Below are positions 21,811-54,468 of a stretch of DNA of 64,000 nucleotides, in pieces. How positions within the stretch are numbered: the first letter of the stretch is position 1; each line of letters begins with the position of its first letter. The translations under genes were made by a program, and so were the position numbers. The notes below the pieces were generated by a model. It did no database searches. It worked only from the letters and a program-made list of their open reading frames with translations, and was not told the DNA's origin. Source of the DNA: Candidatus Rokuibacteriota bacterium (lineage in GTDB: Bacteria > Methylomirabilota > Methylomirabilia > Rokubacteriales > CSP1-6); assembly GCA_016188005.1 (NCBI GenBank), contig JACPIQ010000051.1, positions 1-64,000 on the forward strand, given 5' to 3'.

Positions 21811-22347
21811 TCAGAGCACGTAGAGCCAGGGCCGCGCGGTGAGGCTCGCGGCGCGCCAGAGGCCGCTCTCGGCGAGCCAGCCGACGGCCTCCGCCGCGTC
21901 GGTCGACGCCATCACCGCCAGCGTGCACCCCGCGGGGAGGAAGCCCCCGAAGAGCAGGCGTCCGGCCCCGCGGGCCTCGACCAGCGCGAAGTCGGCCATG
22001 TCCACATCCGTGGCCTCCCCCTCGACGATGGTGGCGGCGCGCGACCCATCGGTGACGAGCGGCGGCGGCCGCCACGGCTCGAGGAAGCGCTCGAAGAGGG
22101 TCGAGGTGTAGCCGGTCCACGCCCCGCCCTTGAAGTACGGGTCCTCCTCCACGACGCACGCGACGTCCGGGGCCTCCGGCACCCGGTAGAAGATGTCCGC
22201 CGTCCTTCCGTCGGGCGAAGGTCCCCCGGCCACCACGAAGCCCCGGGTGCGCAGGTCCATCAGCCGCGCCAGGTGGGCCTCCCGGAGGGGGGTGCGCCGG
22301 GTCACGTAGTCGGGGGCGGGGGTGATGGCGACGTGGGAGACGGGCAT
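21811..22347 (-). CDS. YciI-like protein at the head of the hut operon
   Basis: A 178-residue protein beginning [18 protein letters not shown]. The first 90 residues resemble the YciI/DGPF ferredoxin-like fold ([35 protein letters not shown]). A second half with a similar layout follows ([21 protein letters not shown]). No catalytic role is established. The ATG at 22347 is six bases downstream of a TACCAT -10 box, so the message may be leaderless or nearly so. It is two bases upstream of hutU. Confidence 0.7.
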
Positions 22348-22353
22348 GTCCGC

Positions 22354-22383
22354 ATGGTACTTTGCCGGGCCCCCTCGGCTCAA
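22354..22383 (-). promoter_or_regulatory. hut operon promoter
   Basis: On the minus strand TTGAGC (22383-22378), an 18-base spacer and TACCAT (22359-22354). The expected transcript start coincides with the ATG at 22347, which suggests a leaderless mRNA. Confidence 0.5.
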
Positions 22384-22394
22384 TGCCCTATACT
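22362..22394 (+). promoter_or_regulatory. Cyclase promoter overlapping the hut promoter
   Basis: TATACT (22389-22394) is a good -10 box. The best -35 is TTGCCG (22362-22367), with a long 21-base spacer. A start seven bases after the -10 falls on the GTG at 22401. The two divergent promoters overlap, so their use may be mutually exclusive. Confidence 0.4.
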
Positions 22395-22400
22395 GGCCGC

Positions 22401-24257
22401 GTGCGGCTCCCGGGTCAGCGCCCCTCGTTTCGCCGCGTGGTCCGCGCCCTCGCCCTCGGGGTCCTGGTGAGTGTGGGCGTGACCGCGCTGTCGCACGCGG
22501 GCGTGCTGGCGGGCTGGGAGACGCGAGCCGTGGACGCCTTTCTCTTCTTCCGCGACCGCGAGCCCTCCCCCGACATCGCCGTGGCCCTCGTGGACGAGGA
22601 GGCCTTCCGCGAGCTGGGCGAGCGCCAGCCGCTCTCGCGCCGCTACCTGGCCGACCTGGGCGAGCTCCTGCTCCAGAGCGGCGCGCGGGTCGTGGCCTTC
22701 GACGTGCAGTTCCGGGCGCCCACCGCGCCCGAGGAGGACGACGCGCTGCTGGCGCTCTGCGAGCGCTGGCAGGGGAGCGGTCAGGGCCGGCTCGTCTTCG
22801 CCTCCGTCGCCACGCCGCGGGACGGCGCGGCGGGCGGGCCGTATGACCTGGCGCCGCTCTTCTCGTCGCGGCTCGGCGGGCTCGTGGGCTTCGCCAACGC
22901 GCCGGTGGGGCAGGACGGCGTGATCCGCCGGATGGTGCCCGTGCTGCCCGCGGCCGGCGGCGGGCTCCTGCCGTCCTTCGCGCTGGCCGTGGCGGCGGGG
23001 CACGCCGGCCATGCCCCCGCGGATCTGGCCCGGGCCCTCGCCGTGGGCTCGCCGCTGACCCTGCCGGTGCGCGACGTGACGGGGAGAGTCGGCCGCGCTG
23101 ACTCTCTGCCCCTGGCGCGGCTCGCCTCTGCCCAGTGGCGCATCGACTACGCCGGTGCCGCGGGAGCCTTCACCTCCTTCCCCAGCGGCCCGCTGGTGGC
23201 GCTCGGGCGGAGCGGGGTCAGGCCTCCGGCGGACAATCCCTTTCGCGGGAAGATCGTCCTGGTGGGCGCGGCCTTCGAGGCGAGCCGGGACTTCCACCCG
23301 ACGCCCGTGGGGATGATGGCCGGCGTCGAGGTCCACGCCAACATGGTCCACACGCTGCTGGGACGGCGGGCGCTCCTGCCGCCGCCCATCCTCCTCAACC
23401 TCGCGGTGCTGATCGGGGCGTGCCTGGTCGTGTCGCTGCTCTCGGTGTGGCTGCGCCCCGTGTGGGCGGCGCTGGCCGTGGGCGGGCTCGTCGCCCTCTT
23501 CGCGGCGCTCTCCTACGAGGCCTACACGCGCGGCGGCTACTGGCTCGACTTCGTGGCGCCGCTCGTGGGGATGCTCGCGTACCTGCAGGGCGCCCGGCTC
23601 CTGGCGCGGCGCAGGCTGAGGCAGGCCTTCGGGCAGTTCGTGAGCCCCGCGGTGATGGATCGCGTGCTGCGCGACGGCGCGGCCCTCGGCGGCGAGACGC
23701 GGACCTGCTCCGTGCTGATGTCGGACCTGCGCGGCTTCACGAGCATGGCGGAGCGGTTGCCGCCCGCGCGGGTCTCGGCGGTGATGAACGAGTACTTCAC
23801 CGCCATGGTGGACGTGATCCTCGGGCACCGCGGCATGGTGCAGGACTTCATCGGCGACGGTATCCTGGCGGTGTTCGGGGCGCCCCTCCCCAACCCGGAG
23901 CACGCCTGGCACGCCGTCGAGACGGCGCTGGGGATGCAGGCGGCGCTCGCCGCCCTCAACAAGCGCTGGCAGGCGGAGGGCCGGGCGCCGCTGGCCATGG
24001 GGGCCGCCGTGCACACGGGGGTGGTGTTCGCCGGCAACGTGGGGGCGCCGCGGAAGAAGAAGTACGCGGTGCTGGGAGACACGGTCAACACGGTGTCGCG
24101 CATCGAGGGGCTCAACCGCGAGCTGGGCACGACGGTGCTCGTGAGCGCTGCCACGCTGGCTGCCGTGGGGGATCGGGTCGCCGTGAAGGACCGCGGCGCC
24201 CTCACGGTCAAGGGCAAGGCCGAGCCCGTGCAGGTCTTCGAGCTGCTGGGGAGGTAA
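22401..24257 (+). CDS. CHASE2-sensor class III adenylate/guanylate cyclase
   Basis: A roughly 618-residue membrane cyclase. After an N-terminal membrane helix comes an extracytoplasmic CHASE2 sensor (about 30-315, with IAVALVDEEAFRELGE and FRGKIVLVGAAFEASRD), three membrane helices (about 320-400), and a class III catalytic domain with VLMSDLRGFTSMAERL (first metal Asp), QDFIGDGILAVFGAP (second metal Asp) and VLGDTVNTVSRIEG. These are the residues needed for cyclic nucleotide synthesis. The GTG at 22401 fits the -10 box; an in-frame ATG at 22383 is the alternative. A FecR-domain gene follows seven bases later, a common pairing in CHASE2 cyclase loci. Confidence 0.88.
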   Translation: MRLPGQRPSFRRVVRALALGVLVSVGVTALSHAGVLAGWETRAVDAFLFFRDREPSPDIAVALVDEEAFRELGERQPLSRRYLADLGELLLQSGARVVAFDVQFRAPTAPEEDDALLALCERWQGSGQGRLVFASVATPRDGAAGGPYDLAPLFSSRLGGLVGFANAPVGQDGVIRRMVPVLPAAGGGLLPSFALAVAAGHAGHAPADLARALAVGSPLTLPVRDVTGRVGRADSLPLARLASAQWRIDYAGAAGAFTSFPSGPLVALGRSGVRPPADNPFRGKIVLVGAAFEASRDFHPTPVGMMAGVEVHANMVHTLLGRRALLPPPILLNLAVLIGACLVVSLLSVWLRPVWAALAVGGLVALFAALSYEAYTRGGYWLDFVAPLVGMLAYLQGARLLARRRLRQAFGQFVSPAVMDRVLRDGAALGGETRTCSVLMSDLRGFTSMAERLPPARVSAVMNEYFTAMVDVILGHRGMVQDFIGDGILAVFGAPLPNPEHAWHAVETALGMQAALAALNKRWQAEGRAPLAMGAAVHTGVVFAGNVGAPRKKKYAVLGDTVNTVSRIEGLNRELGTTVLVSAATLAAVGDRVAVKDRGALTVKGKAEPVQVFELLGR

Positions 24258-25768: not shown

Positions 25769-26677
25769 CTATCGGGTCCGGACGGACGCGCTCTGTGTCA
25801 CGAACAGCGGCGGGAAGCGGAACTTCGATCCATCGAGGTAGTCCTCGACGAGCTCGATGGCGATCCAGCGCCGGTCGAGATGCTCGGCCGCTTGCCCCGT
25901 GATGTTCGATCCCGCGAACATGTCGAGAACGACATCTCCCCGGTCAGTGCAGAGCTTGATGAAAAACTCCGGGAGGCCCGGCGGGAACCGAGCCGGGTGG
26001 ACCGGAAGCCCCGCCTGCTGGCAGCGCTTGAGGTACTCGCCGTTCGAGTCGTTGTTCCCGAGCTCGATGAGGTTTGGTGGAATCGCCCCGCCGTGGTCGC
26101 GCGTGAACTTCGACGTGATCGTGTGGCCGCTCGGCCTGGCCTTCGCGCGATACCCGCGCTCGAGCAGGCGGCGCATGTCGGCGCTGTACTCCTTGAGGAC
26201 CTTGCGGTTGTCGGCTTTGGGCCAGGGGGTCTTGGACAGCCACCAGACGAGGTTGACCGCGCACTTCACCCGGATTCGGCGGACATTCACCCACTCGGCA
26301 GGGGCGGGGAGGGCTCCGGGATTGTACCAGTAGATGTCCTGCGCGAGGTGAAGGCCCACCTTGTCGTGGAGCGCGAGGAGAAGATGGTACTGGTAGAGGC
26401 TGCGGGTCGGGGCTCCCTTGTTCCAGACCCCGCCGATGTCGATCACGAAGCTTCCGTCCTCGCGCAGCACCCGCTTGCAGTGGTCGGCGATGGGCAGGAA
26501 CCAGGCGATGTACTCGTCGATGCGGACCGTCCCATACGGCTTCTTCTTCTGGAAGGTCAGGGGGAACGGGGGCGACGTGACGATCAGGTTGACCGACTCG
26601 CTCGGCAGGTCCGCCAGAACGTCGAGCGCGTCGCCCAGGTAGGCCCGGCCGAGTCTCGTCTGGTAGAAGGGCTTCAT
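25769..26677 (-). CDS. DNA methyltransferase, N4-cytosine/N6-adenine beta class
   Basis: A 302-residue DNA methyltransferase. Catalytic motif IV is TSPPFPL (34-40) near the N-terminus and the SAM-binding motif I, DMFAGSNITGQAAE, is near residue 259, so the motif order is that of the beta class. SPPF/SPPY motifs are typical of N4-cytosine enzymes such as M.PvuII and M.Cfr9I. The recognition site cannot be read. Lower GC than its neighbours suggests transfer. It has its own strong promoter. Confidence 0.88.
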   Translation of the reverse strand: MKPFYQTRLGRAYLGDALDVLADLPSESVNLIVTSPPFPLTFQKKKPYGTVRIDEYIAWFLPIADHCKRVLREDGSFVIDIGGVWNKGAPTRSLYQYHLLLALHDKVGLHLAQDIYWYNPGALPAPAEWVNVRRIRVKCAVNLVWWLSKTPWPKADNRKVLKEYSADMRRLLERGYRAKARPSGHTITSKFTRDHGGAIPPNLIELGNNDSNGEYLKRCQQAGLPVHPARFPPGLPEFFIKLCTDRGDVVLDMFAGSNITGQAAEHLDRRWIAIELVEDYLDGSKFRFPPLFVTQSASVRTR

Positions 26678-26809: not shown

Positions 26810-27565
26810 TCACGTCACCCAGCCGCCGGCGAAGGGGATGACCTGCCCCACGAAGAAGTCGGCGTCCTCGGAGGCGAGGTAGACCGCGAGGCGCGCCGAC
26901 TCCTCGCTGCGCGCGATGCGGCCCGCCGGGATGTTCTTCACCATGCGCTCGAGGGCCTTCGGGTCCGCCACGAGCTCCGGCGGGAAGTAGGTGGGGTTCT
27001 CCACGTAGTTCTGGGCGATGGCGTTGACCTGGATGCCGTCGCGCGCCACCTCCCGCCCCACCGCCTTGGTGAGCCCGTTGATCCCGGCCCGCGCCGCCGT
27101 GTAGGCCGCGTAGCGGGCGAGCCCCGGGAAGGCGGCGGCCGAGGACATGTTGATGATCTTCCCGCGCCGGGCCGGCCGCATGACCCGGAGCGCGGCGCGC
27201 AGGCAGTAGAAGGGCTCGTCCAGGAGCCGCTGCATCAGCTCCCGCCACGCCGCGTCCGTGACCGCCTCGGTGGCGCAGCCCGCGGGCGGGCAGGCATTGT
27301 TGTTCACGAGCACGTCGAGCCTGCCGAAGCGCGCCACCACGGCGTCCACGGCGCGATCGGCCTCGGCCGACTCGGCGAGGTCCCCCGTGAGGGCCAGCGC
27401 CGTGCGCCCGAGGCGCTCGGCGAGAACGACCAGGGGCGCGGCGGCCTTCGGCTCGCGGTCGTGGAGCGCGAGCGTGGCGCCCTCCCGCGCGAACTCCTCC
27501 GTGAGGGCCGGGCCCATGAAGGCGCTGCAGTTGGTGATCAGCGCGACCTTGCCGGTGAGTCTCAT
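26810..27565 (-). CDS. Halohydrin dehalogenase (SDR-derived)
   Basis: A 251-residue protein with the short-chain dehydrogenase fold but with the two fingerprints that separate halohydrin dehalogenases from dehydrogenases. The nucleotide-binding glycine motif is replaced by T11-X4-F16-X-G18 (TNCSAFMG), which forms the halide/nucleophile pocket. The catalytic triad is S142-X12-Y155-X3-R159 with Arg in place of the SDR Lys. NYVENPTYFP (187-196) and the C-terminal AGGWVT also fit this family. These enzymes convert vicinal haloalcohols to epoxides without a cofactor and can open epoxides with halide, cyanide or azide. The ATG at 27565 is chosen because the fold begins directly there. Confidence 0.8.
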   Translation of the reverse strand: MRLTGKVALITNCSAFMGPALTEEFAREGATLALHDREPKAAAPLVVLAERLGRTALALTGDLAESAEADRAVDAVVARFGRLDVLVNNNACPPAGCATEAVTDAAWRELMQRLLDEPFYCLRAALRVMRPARRGKIINMSSAAAFPGLARYAAYTAARAGINGLTKAVGREVARDGIQVNAIAQNYVENPTYFPPELVADPKALERMVKNIPAGRIARSEESARLAVYLASEDADFFVGQVIPFAGGWVT

Positions 27566-27659: not shown

Positions 27660-28064
27660 TCAGGGCGCGACCAGCGTCAGCCTCGGGAAGTAGCTGCGGT
27701 AGCGCCGCGCATCGCGTGTGAGGAGCGGCAGTCCGCGTACCGCCGCGTGGGCTCCGACGTAGAAGTCCGGCAGGGGCGAGCGCTTCCGGCCGCCCGCTCG
27801 CCGATATCTCAGGAAGCACCTGGCCGCCAGGAAGGCCGCCTCCCAGGGCAGGGCCTCCCGCCGGAAGAAGTCGGCCGGAAGGGCAGCGTCGACGTCCTCG
27901 ATCTGCTCGAAGCCGACCGAGACCTCGGAGTACACGATGGGATTGATGACGAGCGCATGGTCTTCGGCCAGGCGCGCGAGCTGCCCCGAGGACCACTCGA
28001 ACGACGTCGTGTCCTCCGTCACCACGTCGAGGATGACGTTGCTGTCGACGAGGATCTCGCGCAT
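27660..28064 (-). CDS. vapC: VapC-type PIN-domain toxin
   Basis: A 134-residue PIN-domain ribonuclease. Acidic residues of the metal site are visible: Asp7 in ILVDSNVILD, Glu47 in VYSEVSVGFE, and the C-terminal pair in LPDFYVGAHA and LLTRDARRY. VapC toxins usually cleave tRNA or rRNA sites. It follows vapB by 10 bases in a standard antitoxin-first operon. Confidence 0.88.
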   Translation of the reverse strand: MREILVDSNVILDVVTEDTTSFEWSSGQLARLAEDHALVINPIVYSEVSVGFEQIEDVDAALPADFFRREALPWEAAFLAARCFLRYRRAGGRKRSPLPDFYVGAHAAVRGLPLLTRDARRYRSYFPRLTLVAP

Positions 28065-28074
28065 CCAGGAACGT

Positions 28075-28302
28075 CTACCGGGCGCGCGTCAGGGCCATGA
28101 TCTGGTCGGTGGTCAGCCGGGTGGTGGCCCTCCCTCGCATGCCAGCCAGGAGCCGCCCGCCCCGGTGGCTGGCGGCCCGGACTCTGCGAAGGATGACAGT
28201 GCTCCCCCTCAGGCGGAACTCCACCTCGGTTGCCGGCAGTAACCCCGCCTTGCGGCGAATGGCCAGCGGGATCGTCACCTGTCCCTTGCTCGTGATCCGC
28301 AT
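28075..28302 (-). CDS. vapB: AbrB/MazE-type antitoxin VapB
   Basis: A 75-residue antitoxin. The N-terminal swapped-hairpin DNA-binding domain is evident: MRITSKGQVTIPLAIRRKAGL. The C-terminal tail (about 45-75) would bind the PIN toxin. It is expected to repress its own operon, and a palindromic site overlaps its promoter. A ribosome binding site (GGGGAGGGA) precedes the ATG. Confidence 0.88.
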   Translation of the reverse strand: MRITSKGQVTIPLAIRRKAGLLPATEVEFRLRGSTVILRRVRAASHRGGRLLAGMRGRATTRLTTDQIMALTRAR

Positions 28303-28327: not shown

Positions 28328-28367
28328 TCTTACCGGTAAGAGTAAGAGCCTGGCACAGGCGAGTCAA
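28328..28367 (-). promoter_or_regulatory. vapBC promoter with palindromic operator
   Basis: On the minus strand TTGACT (28367-28362), a 17-base spacer and TACTCT (28344-28339). A perfect 14-base palindrome, TCTTACCGGTAAGA (28328-28341), overlaps the -10 box and is well placed for repression by VapB or the VapBC complex. Confidence 0.65.
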
Positions 28368-28382
28368 GGCGCACGATTCGGA

Positions 28383-28456
28383 TTCGGCTCGCGGTCGTGG
28401 AGCGCGAGCGTGGCGCCCTCCGGCGCGAACTCCTCCGTGAGGGTCGGACCCATGAG
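28383..28456 (-). pseudogene. Duplicated 74-bp fragment of the halohydrin dehalogenase gene
   Basis: This stretch matches 27447-27520 of the dehalogenase gene over 74 bases with no gap and only about four mismatches. In the minus frame it encodes MGPTLTEEFAPEGATLALHD, equivalent to residues 17-36 of the intact protein. It lies just upstream of vapBC and the promoter of the AraC-type regulator. It is a scrap left by duplication or by displacement of a second gene copy. Confidence 0.75.
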
Positions 28457-28472
28457 CCCGAGAAGAATCCTC

Positions 28473-29991: not shown

Positions 29992-32900
29992 GTGATCGGA
30001 CCGGGAGCGCGCTCGGGCGCCGACGAGCTGGACGCCTCAGATCAGTCCCTCCGACTTGTCTCGACGTGGCAACGCGTGGCCGTTCTGGTGCTCGCGGCCG
30101 GCCTGCTCACCGTCGGCCCGGTGCCATCAGCGTCAGCGGCCCCTCCGTCCTGGTGGAATGCGGCATGGAGCTTCCGTCAGCTCGTGACGATCACGGCGCC
30201 TCCGGCGTCCATCCCGCAGGGGTACAGCCTGAAGGTCACGCTCGACCACGCAGCACTCGTGGCTGCGGGGAAGTCGCTCGCCTCCGGACAGGACGTGCGG
30301 GTCGTGTACTGGAACGGCGCCGCACACGTCGAGCTCGATCGCATCCTCGCGCCCGGCTCGTCCTGGAACACGAGCACGACGACGCTCTGGTTCAAGGCGC
30401 AGGCCGCAGTGTCCGCCGGAGCCCCCGACGACAACCACGCCCTCTACTACGGCAACACGGCAGCCGGCGCGGCCCCCGCCAGCGGCGACAGTGTGTTCTT
30501 GCTGTGGGACGACTTCCAGGCGGCGGCGCTCAACGCGGCCAAGTGGGTGGTCTTGACCTCGGGGGCGGTGACGGTCACGGTCAGCAACGGTCAGGTGAAG
30601 GTCAGCGGGACGACGGACGCCAGCAACCAGTACTCCGGCTTTGGGGTCCGATCAGTGGCCACGTTCACGGCCGACTTTCTGGTGGAATCCTCGTTCAGCA
30701 TCGCGGCCCAAGGGACCGGGGCCCACGCCAACTGGAAGGGGGCCTTCGGGCTCGGCGAAGGCTGTGCGAGCGGGCTGGGGGTGAAGAGCGCGGGGAGTAC
30801 GAACAAGCGGATCCGGTGCTGGAACGGGTCGATCTGGGTGGACATCGCCGACAGCAGTCTGGATGCCCAGACGTTCGCGGGGCGCGGGGTGGGCCAGGCC
30901 TTGACGAGTGACGGGGTGGGGCGCCACTACGAGGACGGGGTGCTCAAGGCCACCCGTACCGGGCTCAGCACCGCCGCGCGCACCCCCGTCCTCCGGTATG
31001 GGCCGGATCAGGCCAGCCAGACCTTCGACGTTCGGTTTGACAACGTGCTGGTCCGGATGTTCCTCGCAGCGGACGCGTCCATCTCGGTCACCCTTGGAGC
31101 CGAGGTCGCACAGACCGGGAACCCGGCCCCGACGCTCGGCGCGATCTCGCCGACGAGTGCGGTCGCCGGAGGCGCGGGCTTCACGCTGACCGCCACCGGC
31201 AGCAGTTTCGTGTCGGGTTCCGTGGTGCGCTGGAACGGGGCGGACCGGACGACTTCCTTCGTGAGCGCCACGCAGCTTCAAGCCACCATCCCCGCGACCG
31301 ACCTGGCGAACCCGGGCACCGCCCAGGTCACCGTATTCACGCCGACGCCCGGTGGCGGCACATCGGCGCCTCAGGCCTTCACGATCACCAGCGCCGCGAC
31401 CACGCTCGCCATCACCTCGGTCAATGGCGGCGCCAACCCGACGGCGGGGGCCCCGTTCTCGGTCGTCGTGACGTCCCAGAACCCCCAGGGGGGCAGTGCT
31501 GCCGTCGCCACCGCCACAGGCACGACCCTGAGCCTCAAGACGGGCACCGGTACCCTCGGGGGCACGCTCACCGGGACGATTCCCGCGGGGACGAGCCAGG
31601 TCACCATCAGCGGAGTCACGTACACCAGGGCCGAGAGCGGAGTGGTCTTCACCGCCACGCGGACGACGGGCGACGCCCTGACCCCGGGCGACAGCGCGGC
31701 GTTCACGGTGAATGCTGGTCCAGCCAGCGCCCTCGCCTTCACCACCCAGCCCGCGAACGCCGCCGTGGGGGGGCTGATCCCCGGGCCCCCAACCGTCGCG
31801 GTACGGGACAGCCAGGGCAACACCGTCACGACCTCCACGGCGTCCATCACGGTTGCCATCGGGACGAACCCGGGGGGCGGGACCCTCAGCGGCACCGCCA
31901 CCAGGAGCGCTGCGTCCGGGGTGGCGAGCTTCAGCGACCTCAGCATCAATAACGCCGGGACGGGCTACACGCTCACCGCGACGGCGGCGGGGCTCGCGGG
32001 GGCCACGAGCAACGCCTTCAGCGTCGGGGGAACCGGCACGATCAGCGGGAGTGTGTCGCGCGGCAGTGACGGCCGGGCCGTCGGCGGGGCAACGGTCGAG
32101 GCCCTCCAGGGTGGCACGGCGAGAGCCACCGATGTGACCGCGCAGGACGGAACCTACAGCCTTCCGAACCTCGCCGCCGGGACCTACGACGTCCGGGCGT
32201 CTGCCGACGGGTACCTCGCCAGCTCAGAGAACGGGGTGGTGGTGACAGGCGGCGCAACGGCGACCGTGAACCTGAGCCTCACCGCTGGTCCGTTGCCGGG
32301 GTCGATCGCATACCTGTACGACCGATCGGGGCGTCTGGTGGGAGTGGTGGACCCCGCGGGGGAGACGGCCGTGTACAGCTACGACCCGGTCGGGAATCTC
32401 CTCTCCATCGCCCGTCGCAGCTCCAGCGTGGTGTCGATCATCGACTTCTCGCCAGGCAGCGGGGCCATAGGGGCAACGGTGCGGATCTACGGTACCGGAT
32501 TCAGCGCGACGGCATCGCAGAACACCGTGAGCTTCAATGGGGTAACGGCGGCGCTGACGTCGAGCACCGCGACTGAGATCGTCACGGCCGTACCCTCCGG
32601 TGCGACCTCGGGCCCGATTGCCGTCACCGCACCGAGTGGGTCAGCGACCAGCAGTGCATCGTTCATCGTTGGGGGAGCGGGCGGCGCCCCGACGATTAGC
32701 GGTTTCAGCCCCGGGATTGCGACGGCTGGCACACCGCTCACGATCAACGGGACGAACTTTGATCCGGCGTATGCAAACAACAAGGCGCGCTTCAACATCA
32801 CGCTGGGGACTGTCACCACGGCTACGGCGAGTTCGTTGGGGACGAGCGTGCCGTCGTCCACGGGGTCGGGACGCATCTCGGTCACAACCCCGGGCGGGAT

Positions 32901-34047
32901 GGCGGTGAGTAGCGGGGATCTCTTCATCCCACCCTCTCCGTATACCCCCCCTGACGTGGTGTTCACGAGTCGCATGGGAAACCCTGGGAATGCGTCAGTC
33001 ACGATTGGGACAGCTAGCAAGATCGCACTGGTCGTGTTCGACGGCCAGGGAGGACAGCCGCTCAACGTGTCGATGACCGGGGTGACGATCCCGCAGAGCA
33101 CGGTCACGCTCTACAGTCCTACCGGCGCCGCCCTCGCATCCATGTCGGTGAGCACAGGCGGCGGGAGTTTCCCGATACAGACCCTCCCGGGCAACGGGAG
33201 CTACACGATCCTCGTAGCACCGACGAGTCCGTACACAGGAAGTATGACATTGGCCGTTGGTACGCCGCCGGACCTGGTGGTGGTCGCTCCGGTGACGGTG
33301 CCGACGGCGCCGGTGCTCCCGAACGCGGATGGGAGCTACAGCGTGCCGATCTCCTGGACGGTGCAGAACACGGGGATGAGCGGGATTCCCACCTCGGCCT
33401 CCTGGACGGATCGGGTGTACGTCTCGGTGGACGCGGTCGAGGACGGGGTGGACGTGATAGTGCGAGACGAGGCGCACGTCGATGGGCTGGCAGGGGGAGC
33501 GAGCTACGCGTCGGGCGCGGTGACGGTGACAGTTCCGGCGAGTGTCAGTCCGGGGAGCTATTACATCATCATCCGGACCGACGTCCACCAGCAGATCGCC
33601 GAGAGCGATGAGGGGAACAACACCCGGGCGTCGGCCACCCAGGTGACGCTGGCCCCTCGGCCGGACCTGGTGGTGACATCGCTCCAGGCGCCAGGGAGCG
33701 TGGCACGGAACGGCGACGGCACGTGGAGTGTCCCCGTGCTCTGGGCAGTCCAGAACGTGGGAACGACACCGACGCCGGCATACCCGTCCTGGTGGGATCG
33801 GGTGTATCTCTCGACGGACACGGTGCTGGACGGGAGCGACATCGGCTTGGGGCAGGTGTACCACGCTGACGGGCTTGCAGCGGGAGCCACCTACCAGGGC
33901 TGGCTGACGGTGACGGTGCCGGGCTCGGTGGCGCCCGGCAGCTACTCCATCATCGTCAAGACCGATGACCCGTATAACGACCTGATTGAGGCCGACGAGA
34001 CCAACAACACCCGGGCCTCGGGAATCCAGGTGACGCTCTCGCCATGA
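29992..34047 (+). CDS. Large secreted multidomain protein (DUF2341, IPT/TIG, one RHS repeat, CARDB)
   Basis: A 1351-residue exported protein. A signal peptide (about 22-50, ending ASAAPPSWW) precedes a DUF2341 domain ([14 protein letters not shown], to about 360). Then come an IPT/TIG domain (about 375-460), Ig-like adhesin modules (to about 680), a carboxypeptidase-regulatory-like domain ([19 protein letters not shown], about 682-760), a single YD/RHS repeat ([18 protein letters not shown], about 775-805), two more IPT domains, and two C-terminal CARDB domains ending [10 protein letters not shown] and [10 protein letters not shown]. It is likely a surface adhesin. Its stop overlaps the next start (ATGA), linking it to the rhs gene. 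Confidence 0.85.
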
Positions 34048-46959: not shown

Positions 46960-48198
46960 TCACGCAGGTATTGCTGCGGAAGCAGGCGGGACCACGACGC
47001 CGAGGTCGGCGAGCCGCCGGGTGTGGTAACGGACGAGCTGCTCTCGGTTGAGCCGGCCGAAATGATCGCCTCCGAGGTCCCGGTAGGGCACGCCCTCTCG
47101 GAGGATGTGCCAGGCCGCGACGAGGATCGAGTGGCCCACGGCGACGATAGCTGTCTTGTCGCCGCGGCGGCGTGCAAGCCGGTGGTACTGGGCCGCCAAG
47201 TAACTCTTCTTGGCGCGGACGGCGCCTCGGGCGCACTCGACGAGCGTCGCGCGCAACCAGCGGTCCCCCTTGCGAGTCTTGCCGGATTTTCGCTTCCCGG
47301 CACTCTCGTGGTTACCCGGGCAGATCCCGGCCCACGAGGCGGCATGGCCGGCGGTCGGAAACCGGGTCATGTCGTCACCCAGCTCGGCGAGAATCTGCTC
47401 GGCGCTGCGCCGAGCCACGCCGGTGATGGTGTCGAGGCGCTCCAGCGCGGTGGCGTAGGGGCGCGTCTGCTCCTCGATCCGCCCATCGAACAGCTCGATC
47501 TGCTGTTCGAGGAAGTCGATGTGACTCAGCAGGGCGTCGAGCAGGAAGGCGTGGTGGTCGGTGACTCGCCCGACCAATGCCTCCCGCAGCTGGGCGGCCT
47601 TGTCGCGCAAGCGGCCCCGCGCCAGGGCGGCGAGCTTCTCCGTATCGCGCTCCCCGGCCACGAGCGCCTTGAGCATCGCACGCCCGGAGGCGCCGAGCAC
47701 ATCCGCCGCCACGTCGCCGAGCTTGATGTTCGCCGTTTCGAGCACCTTCTGGACCCGATTGGCCTCGCGGGTGTGTTCCTGGATGAGCTGCCGCCGAGAG
47801 CGGGTCAACTCACGCAGCTCGCGGAACGGGGCCGGGGGGACAAAACTCGCGCGGAGCAAGCCGTGCTCCAACAGCTGCGCGATCCACTGGCAGTCGCGGA
47901 CGTCCGTCTTTCGCCCGGGGACGGCCTTGACGTGCTGTGCGTTGACGAGCAGCAGCTCGATGCTGCCCTCCAGGATATGGTAGACGGGTCGCCAGTACAC
48001 GCCGGTGCTCTCCATCGCGACGTGCGTGCAGCCGGCCATCGTGAGCCAGTCGGCCAGCCGCAGCAACTCGTGGGTCGTGGTTCCGAAGGTGCGCACCTCC
48101 TCCGCGCGCCTGTCCTTCGGCCCCGGAGAGCGCAGACAGGCTGCTACCGTCTTCTTGTGCACGTCGAGGCCGCAGCAGACGCGATAAAGGACGTCCAT
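46960..48198 (-). mobile_element. IS110-family transposase (DEDD recombinase)
   Basis: A complete 412-residue IS110-type transposase. The RuvC-like acidic set is D12 (GLDVHKKT), E63 (AMESTGVYW), D99 and D102 (KTDVRDCQWIAQLL). A coiled-coil region and the C-terminal Transposase_20 domain follow (LDTITGVARRSAEQILAELG, and WAGICPGNHESAGKRKSG with the candidate catalytic Ser). IS110 elements excise as circles and insert site-specifically using a bridge RNA made from the non-coding end. It sits between the rhs3 module and an IS256 remnant. I could not fix its ends. Confidence 0.92.
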
Positions 48199-51813: not shown

Positions 51814-54468
51814 GTGCGGGCAAGGGCGTGGGACGCCGGAAGCGCGGGGGCGCGGGCGCCCGGCCCCGGAGGCGCGCGCATTTCCACAGCAGGCCTGCTC
51901 GAGTCGTTCGCCGCCCGCTACCCGTTCCGCCTGGACGACTTCCAGCTCGAGGCCATCCGGGCGATCGAGGCGGGCCGGTCGGTGATCGTCTCGGCGCCCA
52001 CCGGCTCGGGCAAGACGCTGGTGGCGGAGTTCGCCATCCACGCGGCGCTCTCCCGCGGCCGGCGGCTGGCCTACACCACGCCGCTCAAGGCGCTGTCCAA
52101 CCAGAAGTTCGCCGACTTCGGCCGCCAGTGGGGCCCCGACCGCGTCGGCATCCTCACCGGGGACGTCAAGGTCAACCCGGGGGCGCCGGTGCTGGTCATG
52201 ACCACCGAGATCCTGCGCAACATGTTCTACACGGGCGGGCTGTCGGGGCTCGAGACGGTGGTGCTGGACGAGTGCCACTACATGGGCGACGAGGGGCGGG
52301 GGACGGTGTGGGAGGAGATCATCGTCAACGCCCCGAAGGATGCCATGCTGGTGGCGCTGTCGGCCACGGTGGCGAACATCGCCGAGATCGCCGACTGGAT
52401 CGGCCTCGTCCACCGCCCCATCGTGGCCATCACGCATCCGCACCGGGCGGTGCCGCTCCAGTACCTGGTGGCGGACCTCTCGGGCGAGATCCACCCCTAC
52501 CATGCGGTTCGCGCGGGGAAGGTTCGCCTGCTGGGCGAGGAGCGCGAGGGCGGTCCCACGGACCGGGGGCGCTGGTACACGCGCCGGGTGGTGGACCCCA
52601 CGGTGATGCTCGACGAGCTCGAGGGGCGCGGCTGGCTGCCCGCCATCTACTTCATCTTCAGCCGCGCCGGCTGCGAGCGGGCCATGGAGACGGTCCTGGC
52701 CGAGGGCAAGCCGCTGCTCACCAGGGCGCAGCAGCGCGAGGTGGACGAGGCGATCCGCCAGGCCGTGGAGGAGACCCCCACCATGGCCGAGTCGCCGCTC
52801 AACCAGACCATCTTCCAGGCCCTCGGCATGGGCGTCGGGCTCCACCACGCGGGCATCCTGCCCGGGGTGAAGCGGCTCATCGAGGTGCTCTTCGAGCGCG
52901 GACTGTGTCGCCTGGTGTTCGCCACCGAGACCATGTCGCTCGGCATCCACATGCCCGCCAAGAGTGTGGTGCTGCAGTCGCTCGCCAAGCGCACGGATCG
53001 CGGATTCCGCAGCCTCACCCACAACGAGCTGACGCAGATGGCGGGCCGGGCGGGCCGGCGCGGGATCGATCCCGAGGGCCAGTGCGTCATGGCGCTGGAC
53101 GCGCGCGACGGGCTCGAGGAGATGCGGCGGGTGGTGGACGGCGACGCCGAACCCGTCCAGAGCCAGTTCAAGCTGGGCTATGGCTCGGTGGCGCTGCTCC
53201 TCGGCAGCGGGAGCGACGAGGCGACGATCCGGCGCATCGTGGAGTCCTCCTTCGGCCAGTACCAGAACCTCAAGCGGGTCCGCGCCCTCGAGGCCGAGGC
53301 GCAGGACCTCGAGACCGCGCTCGCCGCGGCGCGGGCTTACGCCGCGGCGTGCGGGGACCTGCCGCGCATCGGGCGCTACCGCAAGGCGCGCGGCGAGGTG
53401 GAGGCGCGGCGCGCCGCCCAGGGGAGGGGGGGGCGCCGGGGCGAGCGGTCGCTGGCCGAGGCGGAGCCCGGGCGGCTCGTGCTGGCCCGCCGGCGCGGGG
53501 GCGCGGTGCTCGGGCTCCTCTGCCGCGTGGACCCGCGCCGCCACCGGCTCGTGGCCAGCGTGCTCCTTCCTCACGGCGAGACCGTTGCCCTCAAGGCGGC
53601 GCACATCAAGAAGGTGTTCTGGGCCACACCCCCCGTGCCCATCCCGCGGGACTGGGAGCGGCGCACCGTCGCCCTCCGCGAGCATCTCTCGCGCGTGTCG
53701 CTGGAGGAGGTCACGGGGCGCGAGCGGAGCCAGGGCCCGGAGGCGGCGCTGGGCGAGATCGAGTGCCACCGCTGTCCGTGGGGCGCCCGGCCGCGCTGCG
53801 AGGAGGCGTGGAAGGGGATCGAGCGGCTCGAGGCGCGGCTCGGCCAGAAGCGGGAGATGCTCGAGGCCGGCCGCAACGTGTACTGGCAGGAGTTCTGCCG
53901 GGTGGTGGAGGTGCTCGAGCACTTCGGCGCCGTCCGCGATGGTAAACTCCTGCCGAAGGGGCAGCTCATCGCCGCCCTCCGCCACGACAACGAGCTGCTG
54001 GTGGCCGAGGTGGCGGACCGGGGCATCCTCGCCGACACGACCCTGGCCGAGGCGGCCGCGCTCTGCTCCTGTCTCGTCGAGGAGTCGCGCTCGAGCGACT
54101 CGGCCCTGGCGCGGCTCTTCCTGAGGAAGCGGCCCAAGCTCCGGAGCAAGCTCCGGCAGCTCGAGGCCGCGGCAGATGCCGTGCTCCAGGCGGAACGGCT
54201 GCATCGCCTGCCGATGCCGGTGGCGGTCTCCACGGGCTTCATGCCGGCCGTCTTCCGCTGGGCCTCCGGCGACGAGGACTGGTCGGGGATCGTGGAGGAG
54301 TCCTTCGGCGGCCACGAGGGCGATCTCATCCGCGCGATGCGCCGACTGATCGACGTCCTGCGCCAGCTCTCGGAGGCCGACGGGGTGAAGCGGGCGCTGG
54401 CGGCGCTCCTCGGCCGCGCGGCCCGCGTCGTGGACCGCGGCATCGTGCTCGAGTCGGCACTCATCTGA
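51814..54468 (+). CDS. Ski2-like DEAD/DEAH-box helicase with DSHCT domain
   Basis: An 884-residue superfamily 2 helicase. The Q-motif-like FRLDDFQLEAIRAI is followed by Walker A APTGSGKT (about 60), DECHYM (about 152), SATVANIAE, and motif VI QMAGRAGRRG (about 409). The C-terminal half contains the Ski2/Mtr4-type helical region (LGYGSVALLL, FGQYQNL) and a DSHCT-like end. Bacterial members (for example HelY) are probable RNA helicases. A lone Cys cluster (ECHRCPWGARPRCEEAW, about 650) may be structural. The GTG at 51814 begins a frame whose first 25 residues are low-complexity, so a later start is possible. Confidence 0.88.
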   Translation: MRARAWDAGSAGARAPGPGGARISTAGLLESFAARYPFRLDDFQLEAIRAIEAGRSVIVSAPTGSGKTLVAEFAIHAALSRGRRLAYTTPLKALSNQKFADFGRQWGPDRVGILTGDVKVNPGAPVLVMTTEILRNMFYTGGLSGLETVVLDECHYMGDEGRGTVWEEIIVNAPKDAMLVALSATVANIAEIADWIGLVHRPIVAITHPHRAVPLQYLVADLSGEIHPYHAVRAGKVRLLGEEREGGPTDRGRWYTRRVVDPTVMLDELEGRGWLPAIYFIFSRAGCERAMETVLAEGKPLLTRAQQREVDEAIRQAVEETPTMAESPLNQTIFQALGMGVGLHHAGILPGVKRLIEVLFERGLCRLVFATETMSLGIHMPAKSVVLQSLAKRTDRGFRSLTHNELTQMAGRAGRRGIDPEGQCVMALDARDGLEEMRRVVDGDAEPVQSQFKLGYGSVALLLGSGSDEATIRRIVESSFGQYQNLKRVRALEAEAQDLETALAAARAYAAACGDLPRIGRYRKARGEVEARRAAQGRGGRRGERSLAEAEPGRLVLARRRGGAVLGLLCRVDPRRHRLVASVLLPHGETVALKAAHIKKVFWATPPVPIPRDWERRTVALREHLSRVSLEEVTGRERSQGPEAALGEIECHRCPWGARPRCEEAWKGIERLEARLGQKREMLEAGRNVYWQEFCRVVEVLEHFGAVRDGKLLPKGQLIAALRHDNELLVAEVADRGILADTTLAEAAALCSCLVEESRSSDSALARLFLRKRPKLRSKLRQLEAAADAVLQAERLHRLPMPVAVSTGFMPAVFRWASGDEDWSGIVEESFGGHEGDLIRAMRRLIDVLRQLSEADGVKRALAALLGRAARVVDRGIVLESALI

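Follow-up and report, generated by a model that had tools for sequence, protein, structure and literature searches.

A probable halohydrin dehalogenase with a short-chain dehydrogenase fold, most likely an inherited resident of Candidatus Rokuibacteriota

Halohydrin dehalogenases (HHDHs), redox-inactive relatives of the common dehydrogenases that split off chlorine or bromine adjacent to an alcohol group, are few in number and have found industrial use. Members of the family are recognised by two published fingerprints, T-x4-F/Y-x-G and S-x12-Y-x3-R, whose counterparts in the short-chain dehydrogenases/reductases (SDRs) are T-G/A-x3-G/A-x-G and S-x10-14-Y-x3-K (PMC11976700), and a representative 19 enzymes found by means of the two motifs were confirmed to possess HHDH activity (PMC4989007). 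Their role is assumed in the literature to be the detoxification or degradation of haloalcohols (PMC11536340), and physiological functions beyond dehalogenation have been allowed for as well (PMC4989007).

Here we describe a gene with these characteristics in a 64,000-nucleotide stretch of a Candidatus Rokuibacteriota genome (contig JACPIQ010000051.1), hereafter referred to as the window. The gene, whose product is our query, and the elements that define it are as follows:

26810..27565, minus strand: putative HHDH gene, 251 aa (translation, orthologue start, tree, diagnostic residues)
27512..27535, minus strand: motif 1, T11-x4-F16-x-G18 (sequence, group comparison and the motif definition of PMC11976700)
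27089..27142, minus strand: motif 2, S142-x12-Y155-x3-R159 (sequence and group comparison)
26981..27013, minus strand: QNYVENPTYFP, residues 185-195, an HHDH-type loop at the place where SDRs have PG (sequence comparison)
26819..26827, minus strand: C-terminal GGW, residues 247-249, common to D-like HHDHs (sequence)

The open reading frame extends from an ATG at 27565 to a stop codon at 26810-26812, and this start agrees in alignment with the N-termini of the orthologues, which read M[KR]LTGK. A first-pass annotation of the sequence, which named no strand, had placed the two fingerprints at residues 11-18 and 142-159, where they are indeed found, and had pointed to NYVENPTYFP and a terminal GGW, both of which are present, the former with a leading Q. 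Its expectation that automatic annotation would call the protein an SDR was also borne out, as Pfam assigns adh_short_C2; none of the NCBIfam models listed reached its cut-off for this protein, the best being FabG with 165.7 of the 296 bits needed.

The best sequence matches in the PDB, whether searched with the single protein or with a family profile, were 7b73 (HheD2), 8xxb and the dehalogenase 6a41, all ahead of FabGs, and the closest reference of solved structure is about 40% identical to the query. The D-type HHDHs (HheD2, 7b73; 8xxb), at this level of identity, share with it both motifs, an IAQN[FY]V[ED]NPTYFP loop and the GGW terminus, but are about 226 residues long, are missing about 25 residues from the N-terminal half, which is intact in the query, and form a separate clade. 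Similarly, HheB (4zd6; 34% identity) has the motifs, an AQ.. loop and the GGW end, but its N-terminal half is short and it groups with the D-like rows in our tree. The dehalogenase 6a41, HheA (1zmo) and HheC (1pwx), which are 36%, 31% and 28% identical to the query, respectively, have the motifs, a full-length N-terminal half and HD at positions 35-36, but carry an SN/PN-type loop where the query has QN, and also form a separate clade. FabG and glucose dehydrogenase resemble the query in fold (Z about 35), in length, and in D62-L63 and N88-N89, which the query retains as part of an SDR-length N-terminal half, whereas the query has other residues at their TGxxxGxG, YxxxK and PG motifs and at the active-site Asn.

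A family-profile scan of one genome per species returned 80 loci. Motif 2 was present in 45, of which 43 also had motif 1 and the other two are without their N-terminus; the SDR motifs TGxxxGxG and YxxxK, with neither HHDH motif, were found in 35. Judged from these sequences, the co-occurrence of the two motifs in the query is not a matter of chance. The glycine motif of SDRs is absent from it, motif 1 reading T11-N-C-S-A-F16-M-G18 (TNCSAFMG) instead, and the group comparison identified departures from the SDR type at G12 (to N), G16 (to F), N114 (to L), K159 (to R), P185-G186 (to Q-N) and T193 (to Y, the SDRs being mostly T at this position). At every position that separates the two groups (12, 16, 114, 159, 185-186 and 193) the query sides with the HHDHs; positions 12, 16 and 159 fall within the motifs, and 114, 185-186 and 193 supply evidence independent of the motifs. 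Position 159 is R in all HHDH rows and K in all 20 SDR rows, and in place of the SDR tetrad N-S-Y-K the query has L114, S142, Y155 and R159. Together, the motifs, the further diagnostic positions and a tree position outside the sampled SDRs support the first-pass identification of an HHDH rather than an NAD(P)-dependent SDR, and we put the probability that the query is an HHDH of SDR fold, acting without a cofactor, at roughly 0.82. Counting against this reading are the retained SDR-length N-terminal half, the identity of only about 40% to the closest reference of solved structure, a fold as close to FabG and glucose dehydrogenase as to HHDHs, and the lack of haloalcohol genes nearby. The gene would be a new addition to a known enzyme family, possibly as a separate subtype.

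By analogy with HheC (PMC4989007), Tyr155, acidified by Arg159, would deprotonate the hydroxyl of a vicinal haloalcohol, with Ser142 holding the substrate oxygen; the alkoxide would displace the adjacent halide to give an epoxide, and the halide would exit into an anion pocket formed by motif 1 (T11, F16 and G18) and the QNY...YF loop (185-194). The reaction would be reversible, and the epoxide could be opened by other anions. The residues of motif 2 are expected to form the catalytic triad, and motif 1, which replaces the glycine motif, is expected to line the halide/nucleophile pocket; the residues of the query are consistent with an anion pocket in place of the nucleotide site. The protein would bind no NAD(P) and would take part in haloalcohol/epoxide turnover.

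The genes adjoining HHDH included neither an epoxide hydrolase nor any other haloalcohol gene; the lack of an epoxide hydrolase is usual, since few HHDH genes adjoin one (PMC4989007). We consider it unlikely, though deserving of serious attention, that the query, while cofactor-free and of HHDH type, serves in nature a reaction other than dehalogenation, for example the opening or closing of a natural epoxide with another nucleophile; dehalogenation would then be a side activity. In favour of such a role are the gene's vertical inheritance in a phylum of uncultured soil and groundwater bacteria, the lack of an adjoining haloalcohol pathway, and the scarcity of epoxide hydrolase neighbours and scope for other functions noted for the family (PMC4989007). 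Nothing specific stands against it; HHDHs use one set of residues to run their reaction in either direction.

The halohydrin dehalogenase gene was found in 11 of 95 Candidatus Rokuibacteriota genomes, the window's own included, with proteins 66-96% identical to the query in the other 10 carriers. Across 10 aligned members from the phylum (66-100% identical) the motif residues are invariant with the exception of F/Y at position 16, a variation allowed by the published motif (PMC11976700), and dN/dS values relative to the window gene were 0.13-0.38, which indicates that the protein is under purifying selection. The gene is single-copy in the window's genome, where other SDR matches are at most 38% identical, apart from a short fragment at 28349-28459. 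In Binatota and Actinomycetota, a weak search that scored few candidates per genome found no Rokubacterial-type HHDH at E 1e-45, its matches being one ordinary SDR and one D-like HHDH. A literature search returned no paper joining 'halohydrin dehalogenase' and 'Rokubacteria'; other dehalogenases have been assigned to Rokubacteria in a metagenome study (PMC10385969).

Among the relatives, the HHDH gene occupies a recurrent site. In genomes G057, G059, G060, G061 and G070 it lies between a divergent DSHCT helicase gene and a co-directional YciI-like gene that starts about 8 bp past it; at loci L107 and L109-L113 the YciI-like gene directly follows HHDH. The order in G089 is HHDH-YciI-urocanase, and G069, which belongs to another genus group, has helicase and HHDH followed by the start of YciI. 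Both neighbours are present in the window at a distance:

51814..54468, plus strand: DSHCT/DEAD helicase, ancestral divergent upstream neighbour of HHDH, here displaced by about 24 kb (relatives' gene order)
21811..22383, minus strand: YciI-like gene (YCII-related), ancestral downstream neighbour of HHDH, here displaced by about 4.4 kb (relatives' gene order)

Beyond the window's helicase the block is as in relatives, namely glutamyltranspeptidase-methyltransferase-YdjC-ROK-alcohol dehydrogenase. In at least 25 other genomes the helicase and YciI genes are adjacent, with a gap of 40-283 bp as read from coordinates, and at E 1e-50 none of them matched HHDH. The presence of HHDH needs two changes on a tree of the helicases from 29 genomes, G069 and G092 being carriers in addition to those on the tree, and pairwise HHDH and helicase distances are correlated at r = 0.94 (8 genomes; the pairs are not independent). 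The simplest history is one of old presence at the helicase/YciI site with repeated loss, and gain followed by spread within the phylum is a formally admissible alternative.

TftG, a dehydrochlorinase, belongs to the YCII family. The YciI-like gene was considered as a functional partner of HHDH, an idea weakened by its presence in 52 of the 95 genomes, mostly beside the helicase without HHDH. A His (RxAHL) and an Asp (EEDPY) are conserved in its protein product, and the gene forms a divergent pair with the DSHCT helicase in the majority of the order's genomes. G090 carries a second helicase-YciI pair (G090:C119:69-5027) that scores exactly as the G075 pair does, at 1259.7 and 195.7 bits, a sign that one of the two assemblies may be contaminated. 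In relatives, long ORFs lie upstream of HHDH on its own strand; these were also considered and matched no family, and the opposite strand there encodes the helicase block.

In the window, the surroundings of the HHDH gene include the following:

27660..28064, minus strand: VapC-like PIN toxin, which joined the HHDH site later (library match; relatives' context)
28075..28302, minus strand: AbrB/MazE-type antitoxin, VapB-like (library match)
25769..26677, minus strand: N6/N4 DNA methyltransferase, found in the window and in none of the relatives' stretches (library match)
28383..28455, minus strand: 73-nt duplicate of the 5' part of HHDH (codons about 17-41), 96% identical, beyond VapBC and in direct orientation

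VapBC, RHS genes and an IS110 transposase lie between the helicase and HHDH, and the DNA methyltransferase, a small ORF, a TPR-like protein and a CHASE2 cyclase lie between HHDH and YciI. The IS110-family RNA-guided transposase (46960-48198, minus strand) scored 288.8 bits against a cut-off of 140 and lies in a block with several RHS/YD-repeat genes (34-46 kb). RHS genes are also adjoined by a gene (29992-34047, plus strand) for a large protein that looks secreted and combines DUF2341, TIG, carboxypeptidase-regulatory, RHS repeat and CARDB domains. The CHASE2-adenylate/guanylate cyclase, followed by the TPR-like protein, occupies 22362-24257 on the plus strand; this pair is also beside HHDH in G090, where the YciI-like gene is missing.

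VapBC adjoins HHDH in G090, but neither the G089 stretch nor other genera yielded it, so that it probably entered the HHDH site within the genus. From this distribution and the gene order of the relatives, HHDH came to lie beside VapBC and the methyltransferase only secondarily: the HHDH gene is the older element, and its site in the window was disrupted when VapBC, the methyltransferase and the IS110/RHS block were added around it. The 73-nt duplicate may mark the route by which VapBC or the RHS block arrived. A mobile origin, proposed in the first-pass annotation from the neighbouring methyltransferase and VapBC pair, did not hold up. That HHDH is a recent mobile acquisition brought in with either of them could draw on its patchy presence in the phylum (11 of 95), on the VapBC, methyltransferase, IS110 transposase and RHS genes nearby, and on the duplicated 5' end, but it is highly improbable given that several genera, including the different genus group of G069, have orthologues at the helicase/HHDH/YciI site without those elements, that the divergence of HHDH tracks that of the helicase, that its GC content of 73.4% is like that of its old neighbours (methyltransferase, 65%; window, 71%), and that it is without a plasmid match at E 1e-30. 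The HHDH gene is most likely an inherited resident of the phylum and not a recent mobile arrival.

The AlphaFold2 model of the query has an SDR fold (pLDDT 94.2, pTM 0.93). Foldseek ranked FabG first, 6a41 at 7 and HheD2 at 21, and VIA-align placed ketoreductases and glucose dehydrogenases first with 6a41 at rank 42 and Z values nearly tied; as 6a41 is the only HHDH among the VIA-align rows, the missing others carry no evidential weight. This FabG-like ranking fits the complete N-terminal half of the query, which has been lost in the D types. Neither comparison separates HHDHs from SDRs, and the fold is therefore neutral on identity.

A maximum-likelihood tree was built from 49 rows, comprising 29 HHDH or HHDH-motif sequences and 20 SDRs, in which types F and G are missing, the HheC and HheA2 sequences are identical at every residue to 1pwx and 1zmo, and the D- or E-type label of motif-bearing loci is a presumption from sequence. 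Placement inside the NAD(P)-dependent SDRs, which the first-pass annotation had named as contradicting an HHDH, did not occur: the query fell outside those sampled, with a 100/100 branch parting all 29 HHDH or HHDH-motif rows, query included, from the 20 SDRs. That the protein is an NAD(P)-dependent SDR carrying the HHDH motifs by coincidence is highly improbable, for although the SDR fold, the SDR-length N-terminal half with D62-L63 and NN, and the library annotation are in keeping with it, the query has replaced both glycines (12 and 16), the Asn of the active site (114), the catalytic Lys (159) and PG at 185-186, and stands outside the sampled SDRs at 100/100.

Within the HHDH side of the tree, the Rokubacterial rows are apart from both the 6a41/HheA/HheC set and the HheB/D-like/E-like set, and these two sets are jointly split from Rokubacteria plus SDRs at 98/93. 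In AU tests, holding Rokubacteria with the B/D/E-like set was not rejected (p = 0.148), and holding them with A/C/6a41 was marginally rejected (p = 0.044). Because the branches of HheA and HheC are long and support for the Rokubacterial rows as one group is just 62/48, we conclude from these alignments only that the Rokubacterial HHDHs appear to belong to neither sampled clade, A/C-like or B/D-like. It is possible, and we suggest it tentatively, that they are a new subtype that split off before A/C and B/D and preserves an intermediate between NAD(P)-SDRs and HHDHs, in which an N-terminal half of full SDR length, D62-L63 and NN included, would be joined to a fully converted active site.

New HHDH lineages are a source of enzymes with other selectivities. 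If the Rokubacterial clade is the deepest HHDH branch, it would provide a test of how an SDR lost its cofactor and turned into a dehalogenase. A long-inherited, resident HHDH in an uncultured phylum of soil and groundwater would indicate that its bacteria encounter haloalcohols or epoxides of natural origin, and not just man-made pollutants.
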